Shown here one piece after another: positions 1-29,662 of a DNA stretch of 64,000 nt. Under the pieces are notes generated by a model. It searched no databases. It worked only from the letters and a program-made list of their open reading frames with translations, and was not told the DNA's origin. This DNA is from Spirochaetota bacterium. Its GTDB lineage: Bacteria; Spirochaetota; UBA4802; UBA5368. How positions within the stretch are numbered: position 1 is the stretch's first letter; every line of letters begins with the position of its first letter. The position numbers and the translations under genes are program-made. The stretch spans positions 62,001-126,000 of the forward strand of contig DATIKU010000061.1 of the NCBI GenBank assembly GCA_035477215.1. Direction: 5' to 3'.

Positions 1-175
1 AGTCGCCGTCCTTTATCATCGTGCGCACCACTTCCTCTGCCGTAGCGAGCTTGGGCTTCAGTGCCCGCGACTTTCCGCGGAAGTATGCACGCGCCGCATC
101 CGCGTCCGGGTTGGTAAAAATCCTGTTCAGTCCCGATTTCAGCTCGATATTGTTTTCCATTACTTCAGCCGACAT
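1..175 (-). CDS. CoA-transferase alpha subunit, N-terminal part (runs off the window)
   Basis: Only the first 58 codons are inside the window; the rest lies to the left. The ATG at 175 is preceded by AGGAGG at good spacing. The readable protein has a lead with residues NPDADAARAYF and KSRAL, then TAEEVVRTMIKDGD, which resembles the start of class I CoA-transferase alpha subunits (glutaconate/3-oxoacid type), where an 'IKDGD' stretch precedes the first glycine-rich loop. It is the last visible gene of the acyl-CoA operon, 41 bp after the acyl-CoA synthetase. If it is a 3-oxoacid CoA-transferase it could activate the acetoacetate released by the BKACE enzyme encoded upstream; this is inference. 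The family call rests on a short stretch. Confidence 0.6.
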   Translation of the reverse strand, partial: MSAEVMENNIELKSGLNRIFTNPDADAARAYFRGKSRALKPKLATAEEVVRTMIKDGD

Positions 176-216
176 GCTTCCGTCCTCCTGCATGGATTTT
201 TCTTCATCAATCCCGT

Positions 217-2046
217 TCATCCGGCCTGCGCCACGTCGTCCGCATACATGCTCTCGATTACGGGACCGTATTTTTCCTGTACGACCTTGCGTTTCACCTT
301 GAGTGTCGCGGTGAGCTCTCCCGACTCTTTCGAGAAATCCTGCCTGATAATCCGGTATTTCTTTATTGTTTCATACCTGGCAAGGCGCGAGTTCCTTTCG
401 GCCACATGCTCGTCCAGAATCTTCAAAAACTCCGGTTTATCCAAAAGCTCCTCGGGGTCGTTGAACGCGAGTCTCCTTTCCTCTGCAAGTTTGGCCGCGA
501 TCTGCCGATCGACATTGATGAGCGCCGTGAGGTATTTCCGCCTTTCGCCGATTACAATGCACTGGGTAAAGAGCGGATCGCTTTTAAAGAGGTTCTCGAT
601 GTTCTGCGGCGCCACGTTTTTCCCGCCCGATGTTATGATGATATCCTTCTTCCTGTCTGTGATGATGAGAAATCCCTCTTCGGTGAAAATTCCAATGTCG
701 CCGGTCCGTAGATAACCATCCGGCGTAAAGGCCTCTCTGGTGGCTTCATCATTGCGCCAGTAGCCCCTGACCACGCAATCACCCTTCACGAGAATCTCGC
801 CGTCGTTGTCAATCTTGATGTCGACGCCCGGCAGGGGCTTGCCCACCGTGCCGATACGGTAGTCGGCGAGGTTACTCATCGTTCCCGGTGCGGTCAGCTC
901 GGTCATACCATATCCTTCGATCACATGTATACCGGCCCCGTTGAAGAACTGTATGATCTCCTTCGCCGTTGGAGCGCCGGAGGCCGTCATCCAGCGCACG
1001 CGCCCGCCCAGCGCGTTCTGCAGCTTCTTGAATATCATTTGAAACGCAATGAAGTATTCTAACCTGAGCAGAAGCGGAATGCGCTTTTTGCGCTCGCGGT
1101 AATCGCTTATCTCCGCCCCGACCTTCTGCCCCCAGTAGAAGACCTTCTGCTTCCATGCGGGCTCGTTTCGCACCTGCATCGTAATACGCTGGTACACCTT
1201 TTCGCAAACGCGGGGAACGGCAAGAATCTCGGTGGGCCGCTTTTCCTGTATGTCCTGCACGATGGTGTCCATGCTCTCGGCGTAGGACGAGGTGAGACCG
1301 ACGTACATGCCGAAGAAATGCCCGGCGATCCTCTCGAACACGTGACTGAGCGGAAGGAAGGGCACGGTCTGGTCGGTATCAAAACCGTACTGCGGCTCGA
1401 CCGAGGCGAGCGCCTTGATCTGGGCCATGATGTTCTTATGCGAAATCATGGCGCCCTTGGGGTGCCCCGTGGTACCCGAAGTATACACTATGGAGGCCAG
1501 ATCCTCAACGTCTACCTCGTCAGCCTGTTTTTCGAAAAGCTTCGGATCCTCATCGTGTTTCCGGCTTCCCGCCTGCATCATGTCCGCGAAGCTCAAGACT
1601 CCCTGCGGCATGAGGGACTTGCCTTCGGCCTCAATAACCACGATCTTTTCAAGCCGGGGACATCCCTTCCGGGCCGCGAGCGCCTTTTCCATCTGCTCGT
1701 TGTTTTCGACTATCACCACTTTCGATTCCGAATGACCGATGATAAACTCCATTTCCTCGGCGGAAAGCGTGGAGTAAATAGGCACCAGCACCGCCCCTAT
1801 TCCGAGTGTGCCCATATCGGTATACAGCCATTCGAGCCTGTTCTCCGAAACGAGCGAGACACGGTCGCCTTTCTTGATCCCTATCGATAGAAGCCCAAGA
1901 CCGGCCGATCGCGATCGATCATAGTACTGGTTCCATGTCGCCTGTTCCCACACTCCTTTGCGCTTCTTCTCTACCGCAAGCCTGTCCCCATAACTGAGCA
2001 CCCTGTTGCGGAAAATCTCGTTAATTGTCCTTTCGGCAACCTGCAT
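217..2046 (-). CDS. long-chain acyl-CoA synthetase (AMP-binding, FadD/FACL type)
   Basis: A 609-residue ANL-superfamily enzyme expected to activate a carboxylic acid to its CoA thioester using ATP. The phosphate-binding motif TSGTTGHPKG is at about residues 189-198. The adenine-binding motif GYGMTE follows at about 380 and the YLRTGDIG hinge region after it, with KKDIIITSGGKN downstream. Length and motifs fit the bacterial long-chain/FadD15-like branch. The ATG at 2046 was chosen over an in-frame GTG at 2055 because AGGAGG sits 8 nt before the ATG and abuts the GTG. It lies 24 bp after the crotonase gene and is presumably co-transcribed. The true substrate (fatty, isoprenoid or sterol-derived acid) cannot be read from sequence. 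Confidence 0.92.
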   Translation of the reverse strand: MQVAERTINEIFRNRVLSYGDRLAVEKKRKGVWEQATWNQYYDRSRSAGLGLLSIGIKKGDRVSLVSENRLEWLYTDMGTLGIGAVLVPIYSTLSAEEMEFIIGHSESKVVIVENNEQMEKALAARKGCPRLEKIVVIEAEGKSLMPQGVLSFADMMQAGSRKHDEDPKLFEKQADEVDVEDLASIVYTSGTTGHPKGAMISHKNIMAQIKALASVEPQYGFDTDQTVPFLPLSHVFERIAGHFFGMYVGLTSSYAESMDTIVQDIQEKRPTEILAVPRVCEKVYQRITMQVRNEPAWKQKVFYWGQKVGAEISDYRERKKRIPLLLRLEYFIAFQMIFKKLQNALGGRVRWMTASGAPTAKEIIQFFNGAGIHVIEGYGMTELTAPGTMSNLADYRIGTVGKPLPGVDIKIDNDGEILVKGDCVVRGYWRNDEATREAFTPDGYLRTGDIGIFTEEGFLIITDRKKDIIITSGGKNVAPQNIENLFKSDPLFTQCIVIGERRKYLTALINVDRQIAAKLAEERRLAFNDPEELLDKPEFLKILDEHVAERNSRLARYETIKKYRIIRQDFSKESGELTATLKVKRKVVQEKYGPVIESMYADDVAQAG

Positions 2047-2070
2047 CGTCACCACCTCCTGGATTTTACT

Positions 2071-2847
2071 TTATATGTTTTTGAACACCGGTTTCCGTTT
2101 TTCAAGAAACGCCCGTATGCCCTCTTCCTTATCCTCGCTGGCGGCGAGCTTTCCGAAAAGTTCGCTTTCCAGCGCAAGTCCTTCACTCATCGAAAGCCTG
2201 CCGCCTGTGATAACCGCCTCGACGATCGCGCGGACGGCGAGCTGTCCCTTCGAAGCGATGCTTCTCGCCAACTTCATCGCCTCGTCCACCACGTCGGCGT
2301 GCGGCACGATCCTGTTGACCAGCCCCACGCGCTCGGCCTCCTTCATGTCGATGAACTTTCCGGTAAGCATATATTCCAGCGCCCGCGCGGGGCCCAGAAG
2401 GCGCACCATGCGCTGGGTACCTCCGAAGGCGGGAATAATCCCCAGCAATATCTCGGGCAGTCCCATCTGCGCCTGATCGCCGGCTATACGCAGATGGCAC
2501 GCCAGTGCGAGCTCGGTGCCCCCGCCGAGGGCGAGGCCGTTTATCGCCGCGATATACGGCTTCCTGGAATTTTCGATAAGGTTCAAGATGCCCTGAGCCC
2601 GGGCGGTGACCGCGACACCGTCCTCGAAGGTCTTCACATCGCGAACGCGATTGATGTCTGCGCCGACAATGAACATGGGCCCATCCCCGGTGATCACCGC
2701 GACCTTCGAATCGGTATCGGCATTTATCCGCCCGACAGTCTCCTCCAGGCCCATGAGCAACTCTTCGTCAAACGCGTTCATCGGCGGATTCGCGAGGGTA
2801 ATCAACGCCACTCCCTTCCCGTCGGTCAGGCAGGTGCATTTCCCCAT
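2071..2847 (-). CDS. enoyl-CoA hydratase (crotonase family)
   Basis: A 258-residue crotonase. Both catalytic glutamates of canonical enoyl-CoA hydratases are present: one in GGGTELALAC and one in GLPEILLGIIPAFGGTQR. The oxyanion-hole region GADINRV is also recognisable. It should hydrate a trans-2-enoyl-CoA in the cytoplasm as part of a beta-oxidation-like sequence. The ATG at 2847 is preceded by AGGGGTGG with 8 nt spacing; an in-frame GTG at 2859 lies inside that ribosome-binding site and is unlikely. It sits between the DUF35-BKACE fusion and the acyl-CoA synthetase in the same operon. Substrate unknown. Confidence 0.9.
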   Translation of the reverse strand: MGKCTCLTDGKGVALITLANPPMNAFDEELLMGLEETVGRINADTDSKVAVITGDGPMFIVGADINRVRDVKTFEDGVAVTARAQGILNLIENSRKPYIAAINGLALGGGTELALACHLRIAGDQAQMGLPEILLGIIPAFGGTQRMVRLLGPARALEYMLTGKFIDMKEAERVGLVNRIVPHADVVDEAMKLARSIASKGQLAVRAIVEAVITGGRLSMSEGLALESELFGKLAASEDKEEGIRAFLEKRKPVFKNI

Positions 2848-2914
2848 GATCGTTTCCACCCCTGTTCGGATTTGAATCCGCGCGGGAACGTAACCCGTCC
2901 CCGCGCGGTGTCCA

Positions 2915-4336
2915 TTAGCGCTTCTTCAGTCCCATGATCTCACGCGCCTCGTCCGGGGTGGCTGGTTCCCTGCCCTGGCACTCGGCGATGCGAACGGCCC
3001 ATTCGACCTGCTCGTAACTTCCCTTTGCCATCTCGCCGTTCGGTATACGGATGTTGTCCTCGAGGCCAACCCGCATGTGGCCGCCCACCAGACAGGACAT
3101 CGTGACGGCCGGGAACTGGTCATTACCCACGCCGCAGGTGGTGAAGTTAGCGCCTGCGGGAATCGCGTTTTTCAGACACAGGAATGCATCGGGCCTGAAT
3201 GCCTGGCCGCCCGCTACGCCCCACACAAAGTTGAAATTCATCGGTTCGCTGAAAAAGCCCTGTTTCATGATAAGCATCGTGTTGTCGAGGCCGCCCATGT
3301 CATAGACCTCGATCTCCGGCTTTACGCCGTTTTCCTCCATGGCCTTGCCGAAGTTCTGCAGCATGGTGAAGGTGTTCTCGAACACGAAATCGATGAAGAT
3401 CTTTCCGGTCTTGCGGTCGAGCAGGCTGAAGTTCATGGTATTGGTATTGAGCGACGCCATCTCCGGTTTGACATGGATGATCTGGCTGATGCGCTGTTCG
3501 GCGGTCTTGCCCATACCAACGGCCGAGCTCATGTTTACGATGAGCTCGGGGCACTTTCCCCTGATGGCGTCGTAGGTAGCCTTAATGCGCGCGTGATCAT
3601 GCGTCGCCATCCCTCCATCCTCGCGCGCATGCACATGCACCATCGCAGCGCCGGCCTTGTAGCACTTGTAGGCCTCTTCGGCGAATTCCTGGGGCGAATA
3701 GGGTACGGCGGGATTCTGGTTCTTCATCGTGGCGGCTCCGGCAAGCGCCGCGGTGATAATAACCTTCCTCGACATCGCTTTTCTCCTTTCATCCAGCCCG
3801 GGCTGGGGTTCTATTTTTGCCGCCGCCGGGGCCTTTTCGGCCGGCGCGCGCTCGGATACCTGCACCTTCTTCGTTTTGGACGGCGCGAAGTGGTCGATAT
3901 CGAGAATTGTATTGGTTGTTTCATCGGCGAATACCGCTTCAACCTTCATGCCAATCTCAACCTGTTCAGGTTTCAAACCGTCGAGGATATGGGCAAACGG
4001 CGTATCGGCACCATCGAGTTTGATGAGGGCCAGAATATACGGCGCCTTGCGTGGAAGGTGACCATCGTTATAGCGGACCACGGTAAAATTAACGACCTCC
4101 CCGATGTTCCCAAGCTCGACCCAGTTGTTTCGAATGTCCTCAAGGCATCGCTCACAGGTCTGCCTGGGCGGAATGAATACTTTATTACACTTGTCGCATT
4201 TCACCCCCATTATTTTCTTCTGGTCTCTTATGGTGGTGATGAACTTGCTTCCCACCCTCCCCGCGAAGTACGAATAGGGGAGTGCGAGTTTCCCGTTTAC
4301 GACGAAACAATCCTTCCGATCATAGTCCAGACTCAT
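2915..4336 (-). CDS. DUF35 (zinc ribbon/OB-fold) - BKACE fusion protein
   Basis: A 473-residue protein with two domains normally encoded separately. Residues 1-155 form a DUF35 module: a zinc ribbon with Cys47, Cys50, Cys61 and Cys64, followed by an OB-fold. Residues 156-187 are an Ala/Pro/Lys-rich linker. Residues 188-473 form a beta-keto acid cleavage enzyme (BKACE, DUF849, Kce family), which converts a beta-keto acid plus acetyl-CoA into acetoacetate plus an acyl-CoA. The metal-binding HVH is at 234-236, and the RVGLEDN motif (Arg422, Glu426, Asp427) matches catalytic and metal residues of Kce. The ATG at 4336 follows AGGAGG. An internal ATG at 3775, preceded by AAAGGAGA, could also yield free BKACE of 286 residues. 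DUF35 modules usually pair with thiolase-fold proteins, and two such genes lie upstream. Confidence 0.85.
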   Translation of the reverse strand: MSLDYDRKDCFVVNGKLALPYSYFAGRVGSKFITTIRDQKKIMGVKCDKCNKVFIPPRQTCERCLEDIRNNWVELGNIGEVVNFTVVRYNDGHLPRKAPYILALIKLDGADTPFAHILDGLKPEQVEIGMKVEAVFADETTNTILDIDHFAPSKTKKVQVSERAPAEKAPAAAKIEPQPGLDERRKAMSRKVIITAALAGAATMKNQNPAVPYSPQEFAEEAYKCYKAGAAMVHVHAREDGGMATHDHARIKATYDAIRGKCPELIVNMSSAVGMGKTAEQRISQIIHVKPEMASLNTNTMNFSLLDRKTGKIFIDFVFENTFTMLQNFGKAMEENGVKPEIEVYDMGGLDNTMLIMKQGFFSEPMNFNFVWGVAGGQAFRPDAFLCLKNAIPAGANFTTCGVGNDQFPAVTMSCLVGGHMRVGLEDNIRIPNGEMAKGSYEQVEWAVRIAECQGREPATPDEAREIMGLKKR

Positions 4337-4347
4337 CGTTCCCCTCC

Positions 4348-5538
4348 TCACTCATCTATCTCAAAATACTTGATATCAAAGATGCTGCCCACGCGCTTGT
4401 CGCTCCAGACTGGACGGACGCGGGTCCCCGATATCTCGTAGTGGCCCCCCTTTATCAGGTCGAGCTGGTCGCGCCGTACCAGATGGGCGAAGGTGTCGTT
4501 CCCCCCGCACCCGTCCAACAGGATGTTCAACATGCCGTATGGAGTCTCCCGCGTCTCCCCGGTGAGAGGGTCCGGGCTGGCGTAATACACGTATTCCATG
4601 TATCGCACCTGTCCCTTCGGCCCCACTTCAACCCATTCGTCCGCGCGTACCCGGCAATCCGCGCATACCTCGCGCGCGGGAAGCTGTATCCGGCCGCATG
4701 TGGGACATTTTGTGCCGAAAATCTTTTTCTCTTTCAGGGCATTCAGAAACCGTCCCATCACCGGTCCTGTCGCGAATCGCTGATTCACCGCGATTGTTTT
4801 TTTTAACACTATCAGCTCCTGTTCCGGCTCCCCATCCGTCGAGGAGGGCGGCTGGTATTTCGCGAAGATCTCCCCCAGCTTCAGCGCAAGCGCGGTCTCG
4901 CCCGCAATGGCCGCCCTGCCGGCCGAAAGAAGCGAGAACGGGTCGGTCTTGCCCAGCATCACATCAACCCAGTCACTGGCCTCGTTCACCTCAAGCCGCA
5001 CCGTGGGCTTCTCGACATGCCCCTCTTTCAACTCGCACGTACCGTCCTTTATTGTCGCGGTCCACACGCCTCCGCCTTCCCCGCCTATCTGGTAGGTGAT
5101 CGTGGCGTTGAGATCCTTGGCGTTCTGCGGCTGGAAGCGGCTCACCAGCGACCCGAACATGTCGAGGATGTAGTCCTTCGTCGACATCTCCTTCCTGCCG
5201 ATTACGAATTTCTTGAACATCTTCGCGGTTTTGCCGAAGGCGCCAAAATCCCCCTCGACCTTCACCTTGCCCGAGGTAAACGCATTGACACTGTCCACCT
5301 TGCCGGTGTTCACGCCGACGAAAGTCTCTCCGTCGCAGAGCATAATCGAGGCGCAGCCGGAAAGATCGTCGATTTTCTCCACCTTGAGCGTTCCGCCCTT
5401 GACTGTTATCTTCCATTTACCCTCACCGGCGATGTCGTACCCGAACGAGGCGTCGACATCCCTCGCTCCCTCTTCGCGGAAGCGTTCGGGCATTGTGTTG
5501 AAAATATCCCCTACTTTGACTCCCCAGTATTCTGCCAT
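4348..5538 (-). CDS. SCP2-SCP2-DUF35 fusion protein
   Basis: A 396-residue protein. Residues about 5-115 and 120-232 look like two tandem SCP2 (sterol-carrier) domains, each ending in an Ala/Gly/Lys-rich helix (for example GDFGAFGKTAKMFKKF). Residues 255-396 are a DUF35 zinc ribbon plus OB-fold with Cys278, Cys281, Cys292 and Cys295. SCP2 domains bind hydrophobic acyl or sterol groups; DUF35 domains are non-catalytic partners of thiolase-fold enzymes and of the steroid aldolase Ltp2. The fusion therefore may deliver a greasy acyl-CoA to the thiolase-like subunits encoded just upstream. Start: ATG at 5538 after AAGGGGGA. It is separated from the thiolase-like gene by 10 bp and from the DUF35-BKACE fusion by 11 bp. 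The second SCP2 assignment is less certain than the first. Confidence 0.8.
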   Translation of the reverse strand: MAEYWGVKVGDIFNTMPERFREEGARDVDASFGYDIAGEGKWKITVKGGTLKVEKIDDLSGCASIMLCDGETFVGVNTGKVDSVNAFTSGKVKVEGDFGAFGKTAKMFKKFVIGRKEMSTKDYILDMFGSLVSRFQPQNAKDLNATITYQIGGEGGGVWTATIKDGTCELKEGHVEKPTVRLEVNEASDWVDVMLGKTDPFSLLSAGRAAIAGETALALKLGEIFAKYQPPSSTDGEPEQELIVLKKTIAVNQRFATGPVMGRFLNALKEKKIFGTKCPTCGRIQLPAREVCADCRVRADEWVEVGPKGQVRYMEYVYYASPDPLTGETRETPYGMLNILLDGCGGNDTFAHLVRRDQLDLIKGGHYEISGTRVRPVWSDKRVGSIFDIKYFEIDE

Positions 5539-5548
5539 TCTGTCCCCC

Positions 5549-6748
5549 TTACCAGTTGAGTTCCTTTTCGAGCATCATGAGCACCGTCCACATGGTACCG
5601 CCAAATCCCGACGCCAGCGCGTGCCTGACTGGAGAGGGTATCTGGTGTTTTCCCGCATCGCCGCGTATCTGCAGCGCCGCCTCAGCGACGCGTATCAGGG
5701 CGGTTGCGCTGATGGGATTGGACGCGATCACGCCGCCCGAGGGATTGATGGGCATCTTTCCGCCTATCATTATGTCCTTGTTCTCCACGAGCCTCAGGTG
5801 CTCGTCGCCTTTCAGCAGGAAAAAATCGCGAAGCCAGTCGAGGGCCCACCACGAGGCCGGATCGTACATCTCGAACACGTCGAAATATTCGAGTGGTTTG
5901 CCGATACCGTTTCGCTTGTAAAGGTTTTCCGCGGCGACGCGCATTGTCGTCTGAACGGGAAACTTCTCGTCGTACCCGAAGATATTGAAGGTTTCTTCCC
6001 TGTGGATGGTGATATGATCTCGTATCCACACCGGTTTTTTCGAGATTTTTTTCGCCTTTTTCTCCTCCGCGAAGATAACAGCGCACGCGCCGTCCGATTG
6101 CGAGCACATATCTATGAGCTTGAGGTCGCCGACGAGCTTCGGCGAAGTTCGGATAAGCTCATCGATCTGTTCGAATTCCAGGCCGAACGCGCGATGAGCC
6201 AGCGAATTAAGGCAGGCGTGCTTGTCCATTATGATGCGGTACATGAGCGAGGCCCGCTTCCCCCGCTCCTCGCCGAATTCGCGGATAACGTCGTACGCCT
6301 TCGAACCGGTCAGTGCGCCGGTCTGGAGATTGCGAAACCACAGCGGATCGGCCATGTTCGTGATACCGCCCGTGGTATGACCTTCCTGCAGCTTCTGAAA
6401 GCCGATGGCCATCACTATGTCGTACATCCCCGAAGCCACAAAATTGTCCGCCGCACAGGCGATAGTGGCGCCTACGGTGCCGCCCGTGGTGATTCTGATG
6501 CAATTTTTGCCGTATGCTCCGGTGCCTATCACGTGCCAGAGATCGGGCTGGTGCACCATCTCGAAAAGCTCCATGTTTCCGTGCACCACGCAATCGATGT
6601 CGTTCATTGTGATGCCCGCGTCCTCAAGCGCCGCTTTCACCGCCTCGTGTATCATTTCCGGCTGGTTCACGTCCTCGCGGTGGCTTGAATACTTCGTCTG
6701 TCCTATGCCAATGATTCCGACGTTTTTATTCTTTTTTCTGTGTGCCAT
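5549..6748 (-). CDS. thiolase-like protein (SCPx/DUF35-partner type), atypical active site
   Basis: A 399-residue thiolase-fold protein with N-terminal VGIIGIGQTKYS and a recognisable GFQKLQEG segment after the nucleophile helix, as in SCP2/SCPx thiolases. The nucleophile region reads RITTGGTVGATIAC: when aligned to NCATGSTAL of SCPx thiolases the cysteine position falls on Gly90 (Thr87-Thr88 nearby). The normal GHP histidine near the C terminus is SNP (Asn344) after a conserved NPSGG. It is thus unlikely to be an ordinary thiolase; it may be a thiolase-fold retro-aldolase or a structural partner. Start: ATG at 6748 after GGAGG. It is 12 bp after the other thiolase-like gene, suggesting an alpha/beta pair. 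Confidence 0.8.
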   Translation of the reverse strand: MAHRKKNKNVGIIGIGQTKYSSHREDVNQPEMIHEAVKAALEDAGITMNDIDCVVHGNMELFEMVHQPDLWHVIGTGAYGKNCIRITTGGTVGATIACAADNFVASGMYDIVMAIGFQKLQEGHTTGGITNMADPLWFRNLQTGALTGSKAYDVIREFGEERGKRASLMYRIIMDKHACLNSLAHRAFGLEFEQIDELIRTSPKLVGDLKLIDMCSQSDGACAVIFAEEKKAKKISKKPVWIRDHITIHREETFNIFGYDEKFPVQTTMRVAAENLYKRNGIGKPLEYFDVFEMYDPASWWALDWLRDFFLLKGDEHLRLVENKDIMIGGKMPINPSGGVIASNPISATALIRVAEAALQIRGDAGKHQIPSPVRHALASGFGGTMWTVLMMLEKELNW

Positions 6749-6760
6749 TGACGAACCTCC

Positions 6761-7906
6761 CTACGCTTCCATGATGACGACGGCCTGGTGCTGCCCCGCG
6801 GCCCCGTAGGTGCCGTGCGCGAGCGCCTTTTTGACACCGTCCACCTGGCGGTCTCCCGCCTCCCCGCGCAGTTGATAGAAACATTCGATCGCGCGAGCCG
6901 CCCCCCCGAGAAGAAAAGGATTCCCGTTCAGCATGCCGCCGGAAAGGTTCACATGGAATTTATCCATCCCGCCTTTATCGACCCACGCGCCCCCTTTGCC
7001 CTCGTCCACAATACCGATTCCCTCGGCCCACATGGGAAGCTGATACGCGGCATGGTCGCAGAGCTCGAAAATTTGAATGTCCTTCTTCGGATCCTTTATA
7101 CCCGCCATTTTGTAAGCGCGTTCGGAGGCCTTTTTGAGTGAGAAATTCGAAACATATTCCCTGTCGCCCGGAAAATAGCTGTCCATGCAATTGGCGAATC
7201 CGGTAATCCATACCGGGTTTTTGCTGAACTCCTTCGCGCGCTCCTCGCAGCACAGCAGCATCCCGAAGGCCCAGTCGGTGATGGGATAGTAGTGCAACTC
7301 GCGCAGCGGATCGGCGAGGAGCGGGGAGCTCATAACCTTCGCCTCGTCAATCTCCTCGTTCTCCCGCGCATAAGGATTTTTCTTCGCGTTTTTCCTGGAA
7401 CGCACCACGATCCTCGCCAGATGCTCTTCCTGGACGCCCGACCTTTGGCCATAGGCCCGCGCCTGAAGGGCGTTCATGTTCATGTTATCCAGACCCAGTG
7501 GCCGGCAATAAAAAGGATCGAATGAGAGATTGGAGACCATCCTGCGGCTCTCCCCCTGCGACTCTTTCATATGCCCCATGAAGAGGATCGCGTCGTCATG
7601 CCCCGAGAGGATGCTTGCCATCGCATAGCCGAGGCCGTTAAGGCTCTCCTGGGCCATCTTCTCCTCACCCCGTAAATGCGCACCCACTACATCGGTCATA
7701 CCGTTGTTCGAAATGGTGCGGGCGTCGAACACGTCATCTGAGCAGGTAACGACGTTTCGTATGCCCTTTTCCATGTCGAAGGTTACTCCGGTCTGCTGCA
7801 TGACCGACTCGAAGCATTCCAGAAGCATGTTCTGGAATCGGGCATGCCAGAGATCGCCTTCGTTCTTGATCTGCGCCACGGCGCATATCGCGACTCGTTT
7901 ACCCAT
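6761..7906 (-). CDS. thiolase-like protein, second subunit, atypical active site
   Basis: A 381-residue divergent thiolase-fold protein and the first gene of the compact operon, with AGGAGG 9 nt before the ATG at 7906. No cysteine is found between residue 55 and about residue 135, where the nucleophile should be; the aligned stretch is EKMAQESLNGLGYAMAS. The C-terminal motif is NLSGG followed by GNP (Asn329 in place of the catalytic His of GHP). A histidine remains in ALAHGTYGAAGQ. The fold call rests on these positional motifs plus length and the neighbour. Together with the next gene it could form a heteromeric thiolase-like core that docks DUF35 domains. Catalysis, if any, must use other residues. 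Confidence 0.72.
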   Translation of the reverse strand: MGKRVAICAVAQIKNEGDLWHARFQNMLLECFESVMQQTGVTFDMEKGIRNVVTCSDDVFDARTISNNGMTDVVGAHLRGEEKMAQESLNGLGYAMASILSGHDDAILFMGHMKESQGESRRMVSNLSFDPFYCRPLGLDNMNMNALQARAYGQRSGVQEEHLARIVVRSRKNAKKNPYARENEEIDEAKVMSSPLLADPLRELHYYPITDWAFGMLLCCEERAKEFSKNPVWITGFANCMDSYFPGDREYVSNFSLKKASERAYKMAGIKDPKKDIQIFELCDHAAYQLPMWAEGIGIVDEGKGGAWVDKGGMDKFHVNLSGGMLNGNPFLLGGAARAIECFYQLRGEAGDRQVDGVKKALAHGTYGAAGQHQAVVIMEA

Positions 7907-7990: not shown

Positions 7991-8539
7991 TTATATGTAA
8001 CAGTTCCAGAAATCACCCTGCCTGATCCTCTTGATAATCGAGTCCTTATCCCTCGGCGCGTCGAGCTCGATCCAGGCCCGCCCCACTCCAAGACGCGTGT
8101 GCGCGTCGTCGGAGGCTATCTTGGGGTAGCGTATCTCCGGTATTTCGTATTCCGGATTCCGAAACCCATTCGAGGTTATCTCAACCGCGTCCAGCGGAAA
8201 CATCTCGGCCACGGTTTCGATTCTTTGCAGTACCTGCCCCATACCGAGGTCATATTCGCCAAGGTGGTTAAGGATATACAACTCCTCCTCGTCGCCGTGT
8301 ATGCGGTTTACGTGCACATACCCCTTAACGAAAACGGTAAGCTCGACCCCCTCGAAGATGATCATCCCCGAGCTCACCTCGCGGTAGAGCTCGATGCTTT
8401 GTGGCTTGAGGAGATAGTCATGATCGGTAAACGCGATGAAGTCATACCCCTTCTCCTCGTAGGCGTCCGCAACCTGCTGCGGCGTCAGCTTGCCGTCGGA
8501 GCAGGTGGTATGCGTGTGCAGACAGCCTTTTATCAGCAT
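7991..8539 (-). CDS. PHP-domain metal-dependent phosphoesterase
   Basis: A 182-residue PHP-domain protein. Metal ligands expected for the family are visible: HTHTTCSDG (His8, His10), FTDHD (Asp39, His40), GVELT (Glu66), NHLG (His92) and SDDAHT near residue 145. It is short, holding only the PHP core, without polymerase or histidinol-phosphatase extras. The reaction is probably hydrolysis of a phosphoester; the substrate is unknown. There is no strong Shine-Dalgarno before the ATG at 8539. It lies 84 bp upstream of the thiolase-like operon on the same strand and could share its transcript, but that gap is much larger than the gaps inside the operon. Confidence 0.85.
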   Translation of the reverse strand: MLIKGCLHTHTTCSDGKLTPQQVADAYEEKGYDFIAFTDHDYLLKPQSIELYREVSSGMIIFEGVELTVFVKGYVHVNRIHGDEEELYILNHLGEYDLGMGQVLQRIETVAEMFPLDAVEITSNGFRNPEYEIPEIRYPKIASDDAHTRLGVGRAWIELDAPRDKDSIIKRIRQGDFWNCYI

Positions 8540-26859: not shown

Positions 26860-27588
26860 TCACTTTCCTTTCATCATGTCCGCCATCTTTTCGACGAACT
26901 TCCGGAACTCCTTTCGCTCGTTCGCGTACGCCTCCTCCAGCGTGGCCCCGTTCCGATACTCGATTAGCCCCTTTATGGTCATCATCATCTCACGGTTCAC
27001 CGCGCATATCTGGGAGGCGATCTCCATGGCGCGCGGAAGGAGCCGTTCGGCCGGAACGACCTCGTTCACCAGGCCATAGCGGAGCGCCTGCTCGGCGTTG
27101 AAATACTGGCAGGTGAGCGACATCTGTTTTGCCATGCGCTGGCCGACGGCCTGCTGCAATAACTGCGTCATTCCCCACCCCGGGTGTATGCCGACCTTGG
27201 CGTGGGTATCGCCGAATATGGCGTTCTCGGATGCTATGAGGAAATCGCAGTTGAGCGCGATCTCGAAACCGCCCGTTATCGCGTGCCCGTTGATCGCGCC
27301 AATCACCGGTTTGCGGCAGGCGCCGATAATGTCGGGGTATTCCTTGCCGTCGCCCCGCGGGTCGAACAGCTCCTCCTTGCCGAGCACCGAAAGGTCGATC
27401 CCTGTGCAGAATGATTTTCCGTTCCCGGTGATTATGGCGACCGTGATGGCGTCGTTACGCGAAACCTCGTCGATCGCGTCGTAGAGCATGGCAAGCAGTT
27501 CCCGGTTGAAACAGTTGCGCCGCTGCGGGCGGTTGAGCGTGATGACGGCTATGCCGTTTTCGACCTCGAACAGTAATGGCTTTTCCAT
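26860..27588 (-). CDS. crotonase-family protein (enoyl-CoA hydratase-like)
   Basis: A 242-residue crotonase with the CoA/oxyanion signature GNGKSFCTGIDLS and GHAITGGFEIALNCD, where the first catalytic Glu is kept. The second Glu position (normally in QPE) reads FGDTHAKVGIHPGWG, with His where Glu is expected. That variant recurs in a large enoyl-CoA hydratase-like subgroup, so simple hydratase activity is not assured. AAGGGGGAT precedes the ATG at 27588. It follows the dienoyl-CoA-reductase-like gene by 47 bp and ends the TetR-led operon. Confidence 0.85.
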   Translation of the reverse strand: MEKPLLFEVENGIAVITLNRPQRRNCFNRELLAMLYDAIDEVSRNDAITVAIITGNGKSFCTGIDLSVLGKEELFDPRGDGKEYPDIIGACRKPVIGAINGHAITGGFEIALNCDFLIASENAIFGDTHAKVGIHPGWGMTQLLQQAVGQRMAKQMSLTCQYFNAEQALRYGLVNEVVPAERLLPRAMEIASQICAVNREMMMTIKGLIEYRNGATLEEAYANERKEFRKFVEKMADMMKGK

Positions 27589-27635
27589 GTTATCCCCCTT
27601 GTTATACACGGGCACCATGTGCCCCAATTTCAGAC

Positions 27636-29567
27636 TTATATCTCACGCCCCGCCCCGGCCCCTTCGTGAACCGCCTCGATGAGGCGCCGCGGCCGCACGG
27701 CATCGCCTACGGTTACACAGGCGAGTCCCGACTTTTTTACCGCCTCTTCGAGCACTTGCTCCGAACGCGCTCCCAGCGCCGTCACCACCATGGCGGCGGG
27801 CTCCGACTGTTCCTTTCCTTCCAGTTCGTAGCGCACACAGTCGGCACCGATGGACGTGACCCTGGCGCCCAGCACCAGTCTGCCTCCTTTTTTAAGCCTG
27901 CGGTGCAGCCAGTAACCGTGAGCGGTGAAGGGCGGCACCGGCGGTGCCGCGCTCATTTCAAGAACGGTCACCGTGACCCCCCGCTCCATCAGAAAATCGG
28001 CGGTCTCCATGCCCACATAGCCCGCGCCGAGCACAACGGCCGGGCTTATAATTTCGGACTTTCCGGTAAGGACATCGCGTGCTTCGCGCACGATTACGCC
28101 GTCGATTCCCGGAATGTCCGACACCGAGGGAAGCGCGCCCGTTGCGAGGATTACCGCCTCCGGCGTCCCGGCAGCTATCATCTCCCCCGTAACCTCGGTT
28201 CCATACCGTATCGCCACGCCCGCCTTCCCGGCCATCCGATTCGCCCAGCGCGTCCATTTGGCCAGGCCCTCCTTGTGCGGTGGTTTGCTCGCCGGGATAA
28301 GCTGCCCGCCCGGCTCCGCCTCCCGTTCGAACACCGTTACACGGTGACCGCGCGCGGCGGCCTCCAGCGCGGCCGAGAGCCCGGCGGGACCCGCACCGAT
28401 CACCCAGACTTCCTTCGCAGCGGGAGCCTTTTCACCGGTGCGCCGGTACTCGTACCCGCAGTCCGGGTTGACGGTGCACGTCGCGGTGCGCATCTCGAAG
28501 TTAAGCCGGTCGATGCATCCCTGGTTGCACGAGAGGCACCAGCGGATATCGTCATACGCGCCGGACTGCGCCTTGACGAGCACGTCCGGATCGGCCAGAA
28601 GCTGGCGGCCGAAGCTTATAAGATCGGCATCGCCGCGTTCGATCGCGGCGTCGGCCGTGCGCGGGTCGGTGATCCTGCCCACGCCGATGACCGGCACCGT
28701 AACGGCTTCCTTTATTTCCCGCGCGCGGAAAAGGTTGAACCCCTCCTCCATGTCCGAGGACGCGATGGTGAGCCCGCCCGGCGTGGAATAAACACCGAGC
28801 GATACATGCAGCGCGTCGGCACCCGCCTCCACAAGCCGCGGCGCGAGCCATTTCATATACCTTAAATCGTATCCGCCCCGTATGAGCTCGTCCGAGGAAA
28901 CGCGCATGATGACCGGAAATCCCGGCCCGACGAGCGCACGTATGGCGCGCAGCACCTCGATCGCGAAGCGCGCGCGGTTTTCGTCCGAGCCGCCGTATTC
29001 GTCGGTGCGCTTGTTCGAAAACGGAGAGAGAAACTGGCAGACAAGGTAGCCGTGCGCACCGTGGACCTCGACCGCGTCGAAACCCGCGTCGCGCGCCCGC
29101 CGTGCCGCTTCGGCATATGCGCGGGCCACCTCGTGGATGCGCGCGACCGACATGGCTTCACAGGGCTGATTGAGGATGGCGCTGGGAACATCCGACGGCG
29201 CCTCAGGCATCGCGCCCGTAAAGTCCTTCATGGTCTCCCTGCCGGCGTGATGCAGCTGGAGCGCTGTCGCGGCCCCCGCCGCGTGCACGGCCCCGGCCAG
29301 CGCCGCAAGGCCCGGAATGTGGTCATCGCTCCAGGCGCCGATCTCGGCGGGAAAGCCCTTGCCGCGCGGATCGACCGCGCAGATCTCGGTGATGACGAGT
29401 CCGACTCCTCCCCGCGCTCGCCGTTCCAGGTAGCGGATGAGACGCTCGCTCACCGAGCCGTCTTTGTTGCCGTAGCCGGTGGCCATGGGCGGCATCACCG
29501 CGCGGTTTTTCAGTCGGAGAGAGTTGATCGTAACGGGTGAGAAAATGCGTTCGAGCTTCCCGCTCAT
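27636..29567 (-). CDS. 2,4-dienoyl-CoA reductase-like NADH:flavin oxidoreductase
   Basis: A 643-residue flavoprotein. Residues 1-350 form an old-yellow-enzyme TIM barrel (ALQLHHAGRETMKD, GAHGYLVCQFLSPFSNKR, GVGRITDP). The 4Fe-4S cysteines CLSCNQGC and a later C (TATC) follow. Residues about 385-640 are an FAD/NAD(P)-binding domain with GAGPAGLSAAL and GAGYVGME. This is the layout of FadH, which reduces 2,4-dienoyl-CoA, but also of 2-enoate reductases and trimethylamine dehydrogenase. The start at ATG 29567 is decided by GGAGG 5 nt upstream. It lies between TetR and a crotonase, supporting unsaturated acyl-CoA catabolism. Confidence 0.88.
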   Translation of the reverse strand: MSGKLERIFSPVTINSLRLKNRAVMPPMATGYGNKDGSVSERLIRYLERRARGGVGLVITEICAVDPRGKGFPAEIGAWSDDHIPGLAALAGAVHAAGAATALQLHHAGRETMKDFTGAMPEAPSDVPSAILNQPCEAMSVARIHEVARAYAEAARRARDAGFDAVEVHGAHGYLVCQFLSPFSNKRTDEYGGSDENRARFAIEVLRAIRALVGPGFPVIMRVSSDELIRGGYDLRYMKWLAPRLVEAGADALHVSLGVYSTPGGLTIASSDMEEGFNLFRAREIKEAVTVPVIGVGRITDPRTADAAIERGDADLISFGRQLLADPDVLVKAQSGAYDDIRWCLSCNQGCIDRLNFEMRTATCTVNPDCGYEYRRTGEKAPAAKEVWVIGAGPAGLSAALEAAARGHRVTVFEREAEPGGQLIPASKPPHKEGLAKWTRWANRMAGKAGVAIRYGTEVTGEMIAAGTPEAVILATGALPSVSDIPGIDGVIVREARDVLTGKSEIISPAVVLGAGYVGMETADFLMERGVTVTVLEMSAAPPVPPFTAHGYWLHRRLKKGGRLVLGARVTSIGADCVRYELEGKEQSEPAAMVVTALGARSEQVLEEAVKKSGLACVTVGDAVRPRRLIEAVHEGAGAGREI

Positions 29568-29662
29568 GTTTTCCTCCATATCAAATAGCGTAACAACGTC
29601 GATACGTCGCCCTGATCATTCAGCGTCCGCATAGCGTCCCGCCGGGCAGTGGGCGGAATAAC

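Follow-up and report, generated by a model that had tools for sequence, protein, structure and literature searches.

Cys-less thiolase-fold proteins, DUF35 domains and BKACE in a conserved gene cluster of Spirochaetota: a candidate for aldolytic beta-oxidation

What reaction would be catalyzed by thiolase-fold proteins that lack the thiolase nucleophile and are encoded together with SCP2, DUF35 and BKACE domains? The question is raised by the first 7.9 kb of a 64,000-nucleotide stretch (hereafter, the window) of a Spirochaetota draft genome of 3.57 Mb in 62 contigs (assembly GCA_035477215.1; contig DATIKU010000061.1, C61:62001-126000). The original prediction described seven minus-strand genes here and read them as an operon for acyl-CoA cleavage. 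Pfam analysis recovered the thiolase-fold, SCP2, DUF35, BKACE, crotonase and AMP-binding domains it had named: six complete genes, all on the minus strand, occupy positions 217-7906, and the 5' end of the CoA-transferase subunit A gene lies at 1-220. On balance, we favor the view that the cluster serves the anaerobic breakdown of a hydrophobic carboxylic acid by "aldolytic beta-oxidation". The genes at this end of the window are as follows.

7991-8539, minus strand: PHP-domain metallohydrolase, first gene of the conserved block (Pfam and synteny)
6761-7906, minus strand: T1a, thiolase-fold subunit, Ltp4-like partner, without nucleophilic Cys, with CDHA at the position of the Ltp2 YDHF motif (profile, alignment, AlphaFold2 model with pTM 0.91)
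5549-6748, minus strand: T1b, thiolase-fold subunit, PRK08313/Ltp3-like, with Gly90 at the nucleophilic Cys position and an invariant Y295-D-P (profile, alignment, AlphaFold2 model with pTM 0.90)
4348-5538, minus strand: SCP2-SCP2-DUF35 protein with a C4 zinc ribbon (zf-ChsH2) (Pfam)
2915-4351, minus strand: DUF35 (zf-ChsH2 and OB_ChsH2_C) followed by BKACE, one fusion gene (Pfam)
2071-2859, minus strand: crotonase-family enoyl-CoA hydratase, a variable cluster member (Pfam)
217-2055, minus strand: AMP-binding ligase of the long-chain acyl-CoA synthetase type (Pfam)
1-220, minus strand: CoA-transferase subunit A, 5' part, glutaconate CoA-transferase family; the whole gene is at L010:9165-10220 (structure-chain match)

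The genes are tightly packed, with intergenic gaps of 12, 10, and then 55 and 15 bp from T1a down to the ligase, and a 4-bp overlap (4348-4351) between the SCP2-SCP2-DUF35 and DUF35-BKACE genes if the latter starts at the GTG at 4351; the ATG of MSLDYD at 4336 is an alternative. The first SCP2-type domain is best scored by the related Pfam family Alkyl_sulf_C.

Extent and conservation of the cluster

The predicted seven-gene operon proved to be part of one conserved cluster of catabolic type, but its limits did not stand: the unit does not end at window base 1, and it includes a second paralogous set of thiolase-fold and DUF35 genes as well as dehydrogenases and hydratases of its own. The full cluster comprises about 19 genes, of which the 7.9 kb in the window form one end, and about 12 kb more continue on the same strand to the left of base 1. 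Its order is PHP, T1a, T1b, SCP2-SCP2-DUF35, DUF35-BKACE, crotonase, acyl-CoA ligase and CoA-transferase A, followed beyond the window by CoA-transferase B, a DUF35 gene (D35a), a second thiolase-fold pair (T2a, T2b), another DUF35 gene (D35b), a SpoIIE-type phosphatase, a TetR regulator, two acyl-CoA dehydrogenases and two MaoC-family genes.

Scanning genome contigs identified 24 relatives of the SCP2-DUF35 protein, and the gene order was the same in the loci of 22 of them, distributed over Spirochaetota and Desulfobacterota, including Smithella. Adjacency counts among these 22 loci, which are lower bounds since contig ends cut several loci, were 22 for the SCP2-DUF35 gene followed by DUF35, 21 for DUF35-BKACE, 20 for T1a-T1b, 18 for PHP-T1a (of 20 loci holding T1a), 15 for D35a-T2a, 14 for T2b-D35b and 13 for CoA-transferase A-B. 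Such conservation across 22 related loci excludes grouping by chance. Scattered homologues, named in the original prediction as grounds for rejecting it, were not what the gene neighborhoods revealed, and the same synteny rules out a set of scattered ordinary beta-oxidation genes. Within the phylum, the SCP2-DUF35 gene was present in 20 of 296 sampled genomes, all 20 belonging to the same order. Crotonase is absent from many Smithella-type loci and is therefore not core to the cluster. Neither a 3-hydroxyacyl-CoA dehydrogenase nor a Cys-type thiolase was found in the conserved cluster.

In a tree of T1a and T1b, the Smithella/Syntrophaceae copies (L025-L031, L035, L100) nest within the spirochaete branch, which suggests transfer of the cluster between phyla; the rooting is informal, relying on two loci with the T1 genes cut off and the T2 paralogues standing in. 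Open-access literature searches returned no description of such a cluster, in keeping with the claim that no described system has this exact set. The cluster is real, widely conserved and of catabolic type, and combines known families in a new, apparently undescribed way. The number of SCP2 units in the SCP2-DUF35 protein appears to be two or three depending on the lineage (L022, L024, L033; ORFs of 524-562 aa in G102, G139 and G204).

Thiolase-fold proteins and their DUF35 partners

When T1b is aligned to SCP2-thiolase and the archaeal thiolase (6esq), its Gly90 falls at the position of the nucleophilic Cys. Gly occupies this site in every T1b ortholog and in the T2b and T2a proteins of the cluster, and no T1a ortholog has a Cys there. 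Because no ortholog has the nucleophilic Cys, the T1 and T2 proteins are, judged by their sequences, not ordinary thiolases. That the pair might belong to an ordinary thiolase pathway had been raised as a possible objection; the residues instead favor the predicted likeness of the C-C cleavage to that of the steroid aldolase. In Ltp2, the catalytic base is Tyr294 of the YDHF motif, at the position shared by Ltp2 and Sal (PMC12329534). The corresponding Tyr is found in T1b as Y295-D-P in 21 of 21 orthologs, and in T2a it is present in 15 of 18. The second catalytic residue is Tyr344 in Ltp2 and Cys304 in Sal; the position of Sal Cys304 is occupied by Pro in T1b and T2b and by Ala in T2a, so that this feature of Sal is not kept.

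AlphaFold2 models of both T1a and T1b are thiolase folds; most of the solved structures nearest to them are SCP2-thiolases and DUF35-bound complexes, the latter being archaeal thiolase/HMG-CoA synthase, BbsAB, Sal-Shy, Ltp2-ChsH2 and PhlABC. The presence of the archaeal complex, PhlABC and benzoylsuccinyl-CoA thiolase among these folds could mean that the thiolase-fold sets act, by an unusual mechanism, as acyltransferases or Claisen enzymes, perhaps in the direction of biosynthesis. We regard this as improbable: the Cys that would carry the acyl group is replaced by Gly in every T1b ortholog and is lacking in T2a and T2b of the cluster, and the companion genes (ligase, dehydrogenases, hydratases) are catabolic. 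The similarity to BbsAB (7pxp) and to the archaeal acetoacetyl-CoA thiolase/HMG-CoA synthase/DUF35 complex (6esq) lies in a DUF35-bound thiolase fold of high fold similarity; the cluster proteins nevertheless score only 66-142 bits against the BbsB profile (NCBIfam cut-off 750), and the nucleophilic Cys of 6esq is Gly in them. With Ltp2-ChsH2 (6ok1) and Sal-Shy (9myr) they share the thiolase fold with a DUF35 zinc-ribbon/OB partner, the fusion of DUF35 to a neighboring-step enzyme and the Tyr base position. Unlike the cluster, these systems have a single thiolase-fold subunit, and their DUF35 carries a MaoC hydratase rather than BKACE or SCP2.

The predicted association of the thiolase-fold proteins with DUF35 is supported. 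In pairwise comparison, T1a resembles T2a most (37%) and T1b resembles T2b (40%); of the DUF35 domains, the one fused to BKACE is closest to D35a (51%) and the one on the SCP2 protein to D35b (35%). This likeness indicates that the cluster holds two copies of one plan, each with two thiolase-fold proteins and two DUF35 domains; in set 1, one DUF35 carries the SCP2 repeats and the other carries BKACE. The fourth zinc-ribbon Cys of the BKACE-borne DUF35 is replaced by Asp (CxxC...CxxD) in many orthologs, e.g., L015, L016 and L025-L031, a variation reminiscent of Shy, whose ribbon is Cys3His.

The best family models for the thiolase-fold proteins are PRK08313 and PRK07937 (Ltp3/Ltp4), both below the curated NCBIfam cut-offs of 514 and 419 bits: the scores against PRK08313 are 271 for T1b, 356 for T2b, 177 for T1a and 289 for T2a. 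By comparison, an actinobacterial control pair adjoining a double-DUF35 gene passes both cut-offs (734 and 593 bits). In the actinobacterial systems, too, a pair of distinct thiolase-fold proteins without the Cys is encoded alongside two DUF35 domains, and the Ltp3-type protein has a Tyr in its IYVPFS motif. The arrangement of a double DUF35 with Ltp4 and Ltp3 presumably corresponds to the Mycobacterium genes Rv3521-Rv3523. The cluster differs in that its DUF35 domains sit on SCP2 and BKACE proteins, in its two paralogous sets, and in its hosts, which look like anaerobes. In PMC6273163, which cites Wilbrink 2012, Ltp3/Ltp4 are described as aldol-lyases that act on the branched side chains of sterols.

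It is conceivable that the cluster encodes a similar cutter of branched-chain or sterol-type side chains, releasing a ketone or aldehyde with acetyl- or propionyl-CoA, while BKACE acts in an unrelated step. The family proximity, the same make-up of two thiolases and two DUF35 domains, the SCP2 domains and a pairing of dehydrogenase and MaoC genes like that of sterol catabolism all agree with this. We nevertheless find it the least credible of the alternatives, given that the scores fall below the Ltp3/Ltp4 family cut-offs, that the repeated tie of BKACE to these sets would be left unexplained, and that the genome has no Hydantoinase_B-type ketone carboxylase for a ketone product. Methyl-ketone carboxylation as a source of substrate for BKACE was rejected because this carboxylase is absent from the genome.

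BKACE, the CoA-transferase and the proposed route

The BKACE domain belongs to its family with confidence (PF05853, 314 bits against a threshold of 24.8) and keeps H46, H48, E230, R226, D231, S82 and E143, the Zn ligands and catalytic residues of Kce (2y7d), so that it is catalytically intact by sequence. It differs from Kce in its N-terminal DUF35 docking domain and in an invariant Ala in place of Glu14, a residue that presumably contacts the amino group of the Kce substrate, and it scores 279 bits against the cut-off of 382 of the Kce (3-keto-5-aminohexanoate) equivalog profile.

The original prediction included BKACE as a partner in the pathway, and related loci support this. Fused DUF35-BKACE genes occur in 21 loci and all fall into one clade of the T1a and T1b tree, while in the deepest branch (L089, L091, L093) BKACE is a separate adjoining gene. 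In genome G639, whose T1 locus lacks BKACE, a run of BKACE and CoA-transferase A and B genes lies elsewhere (L085), and a distant BKACE stands inside another operon with the order ECH-Ta-DUF35-DUF35-BKACE-Tb (L104). Given these fused, adjoining, L085 and L104 arrangements, the partnership of BKACE with thiolase-fold/DUF35 sets recurs in separate forms.

The CoA-transferase had been taken for the 3-oxoacid type, which would recycle acetoacetate. Both subunits instead best match glutaconate CoA-transferase (1poi) over most of their length, and subunit B keeps the catalytic Glu of the VESG motif; for subunit A, SCOT-type chains are far weaker than 1poi_A (1.9e-33), and the L085 ortholog reaches 50 bits against 128 for pcaI_scoA. 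An IpdAB-like ring hydrolase was rejected for the pair on the grounds of this best match and the kept Glu. In contrast to glutaconate CoA-transferase, the cluster pair has the second thiolase-fold set as its 3' neighbors.

These genes can also be arranged linearly, as originally predicted: conventional beta-oxidation would yield a 3-oxoacyl-CoA, the CoA-transferase would free the 3-oxo acid, and BKACE with acetyl-CoA would replace thiolysis, leaving the thiolase-like complexes an earlier step. Kce/BKACE enzymes do need a free keto acid, and the CoA-transferase pair adjoins BKACE in L085 and is near it in the main cluster. The linear arrangement is still unlikely, though less so than the other alternatives, considering the glutaconate-type transferase, the conserved cluster without 3-hydroxyacyl-CoA dehydrogenase, and the unexplained fusion of BKACE to a DUF35 of the thiolase-fold set.

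The general scheme of aldolytic beta-oxidation appears probable to us. The ligase would activate the acid, the dehydrogenase and MaoC pairs would make a 3-hydroxyacyl-CoA, and each gene set would assemble into one complex whose thiolase-fold subunit cleaves this intermediate by retro-aldol reaction, with the conserved Tyr as the base. The missing Cys makes thiolysis unlikely, with retro-aldol cleavage as its natural replacement. DUF35 connects a thiolase-fold enzyme with one that acts in a neighboring step in ChsH2, Shy and the archaeal thiolase complex; since the domain is here fused to BKACE, it would be expected to hold BKACE beside the aldolase in complex 1. Acting there, BKACE would imply that complex 1 makes, or less likely uses, a free beta-keto acid, which BKACE would convert with acetyl-CoA into an acyl-CoA and acetoacetate.

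Retro-aldol reactions giving a free beta-keto acid are known from HMG-CoA cleavage and the citronellol/geraniol (Atu) pathway. A 3-alkyl-3-hydroxyglutaryl-CoA would yield such an acid in the same manner, and we tentatively suggest this HMG-CoA type as the substrate class; such dicarboxylic intermediates would suit both the glutaconate type of the CoA-transferase and the crotonase hydratase. It is possible, if doubtful, that the cluster represents a new multi-enzyme complex of strict anaerobes, in which an SCP2-loaded, Cys-less retro-aldolase of thiolase fold passes a free beta-keto acid directly to a DUF35-docked BKACE, so that Spirochaetota and Smithella-type syntrophs could process 3-branched (HMG-CoA-type) acyl-CoAs without thiolysis.

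Several observations weigh against the aldolytic route. T1a has no Tyr at the Ltp2 base position but mostly Cys or Ser, and T2b has an invariant Tyr in YQP rather than YDxx. In several genomes a free DUF35 accompanies the T1 core but BKACE does not adjoin it (L034, L086, L088, L095-L098), so that BKACE is not obligatory at the locus, and crotonase is patchy among Smithella-type loci. The cluster contains no biotin carboxylase or ring-cleavage genes to supply 3-alkylglutaconyl-CoA, and the dehydrogenase and thiolase genes absent from it could lie elsewhere in the genome. Activity, complex formation and substrate are proposed here from sequence, synteny and models.

A picture is emerging in which DUF35 proteins serve as docking modules between thiolase-fold enzymes and an enzyme of a neighboring step. 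If the proposed route is correct, BKACE and SCP2 would join their docked partners, and uncultured anaerobic Spirochaetota and Smithella-type syntrophs would have a specific route for cleaving C-C bonds of recalcitrant acids. The fusion of DUF35 to BKACE points to a beta-keto acid as the product type, so the substrate class is directly testable.

Other genes and related loci

A glycyl-radical enzyme beside the BKACE and CoA-transferase genes at L085 was considered as the pathway entry and rejected, as it is not conserved with the cluster: among the Spirochaetota checked, close relatives occur in 9 of the 15 with the cluster and in 5 of the 14 without it, and L085 is the only place where one stands beside BKACE. 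This subfamily (L085:5358-8384; L105-L116) consists of proteins of ~1000 aa with a ~190-aa, apparently SCP2-like N-terminal extension, common in Spirochaetota and Desulfobacterota; one of three tested gave a marginal Pfam SCP2 match (E = 0.056). BKACE might also suit propionate dismutation in Smithella (3-ketohexanoate to butyrate); a larger substrate is favored, however, by the SCP2 domains and the long-chain ligase.

Related gene sets occur elsewhere. A second catabolic cluster of the same genome (L012, C34:24001-42000) encodes a ketoacyl-synthase-III-like/DUF35 fusion, a thiolase, a double MaoC protein, an SDR, an acyl-CoA dehydrogenase, a nitronate monooxygenase and a carboxyltransferase, and a third thiolase-like pair (L011, C44:8001-26000) is accompanied by a DUF35 gene, an acyl-CoA dehydrogenase and a ligase. 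Locus L068 (G298:C9:86001-106000) combines two thiolase-fold sets with two CrtI-like FAD enzymes, ordinary thiolases, a 3-hydroxyacyl-CoA dehydrogenase and a stand-alone BKACE. Further along the window (26860-29579), a crotonase gene adjoins a gene resembling old yellow enzyme/dienoyl-CoA reductase, as judged from the translation alone.

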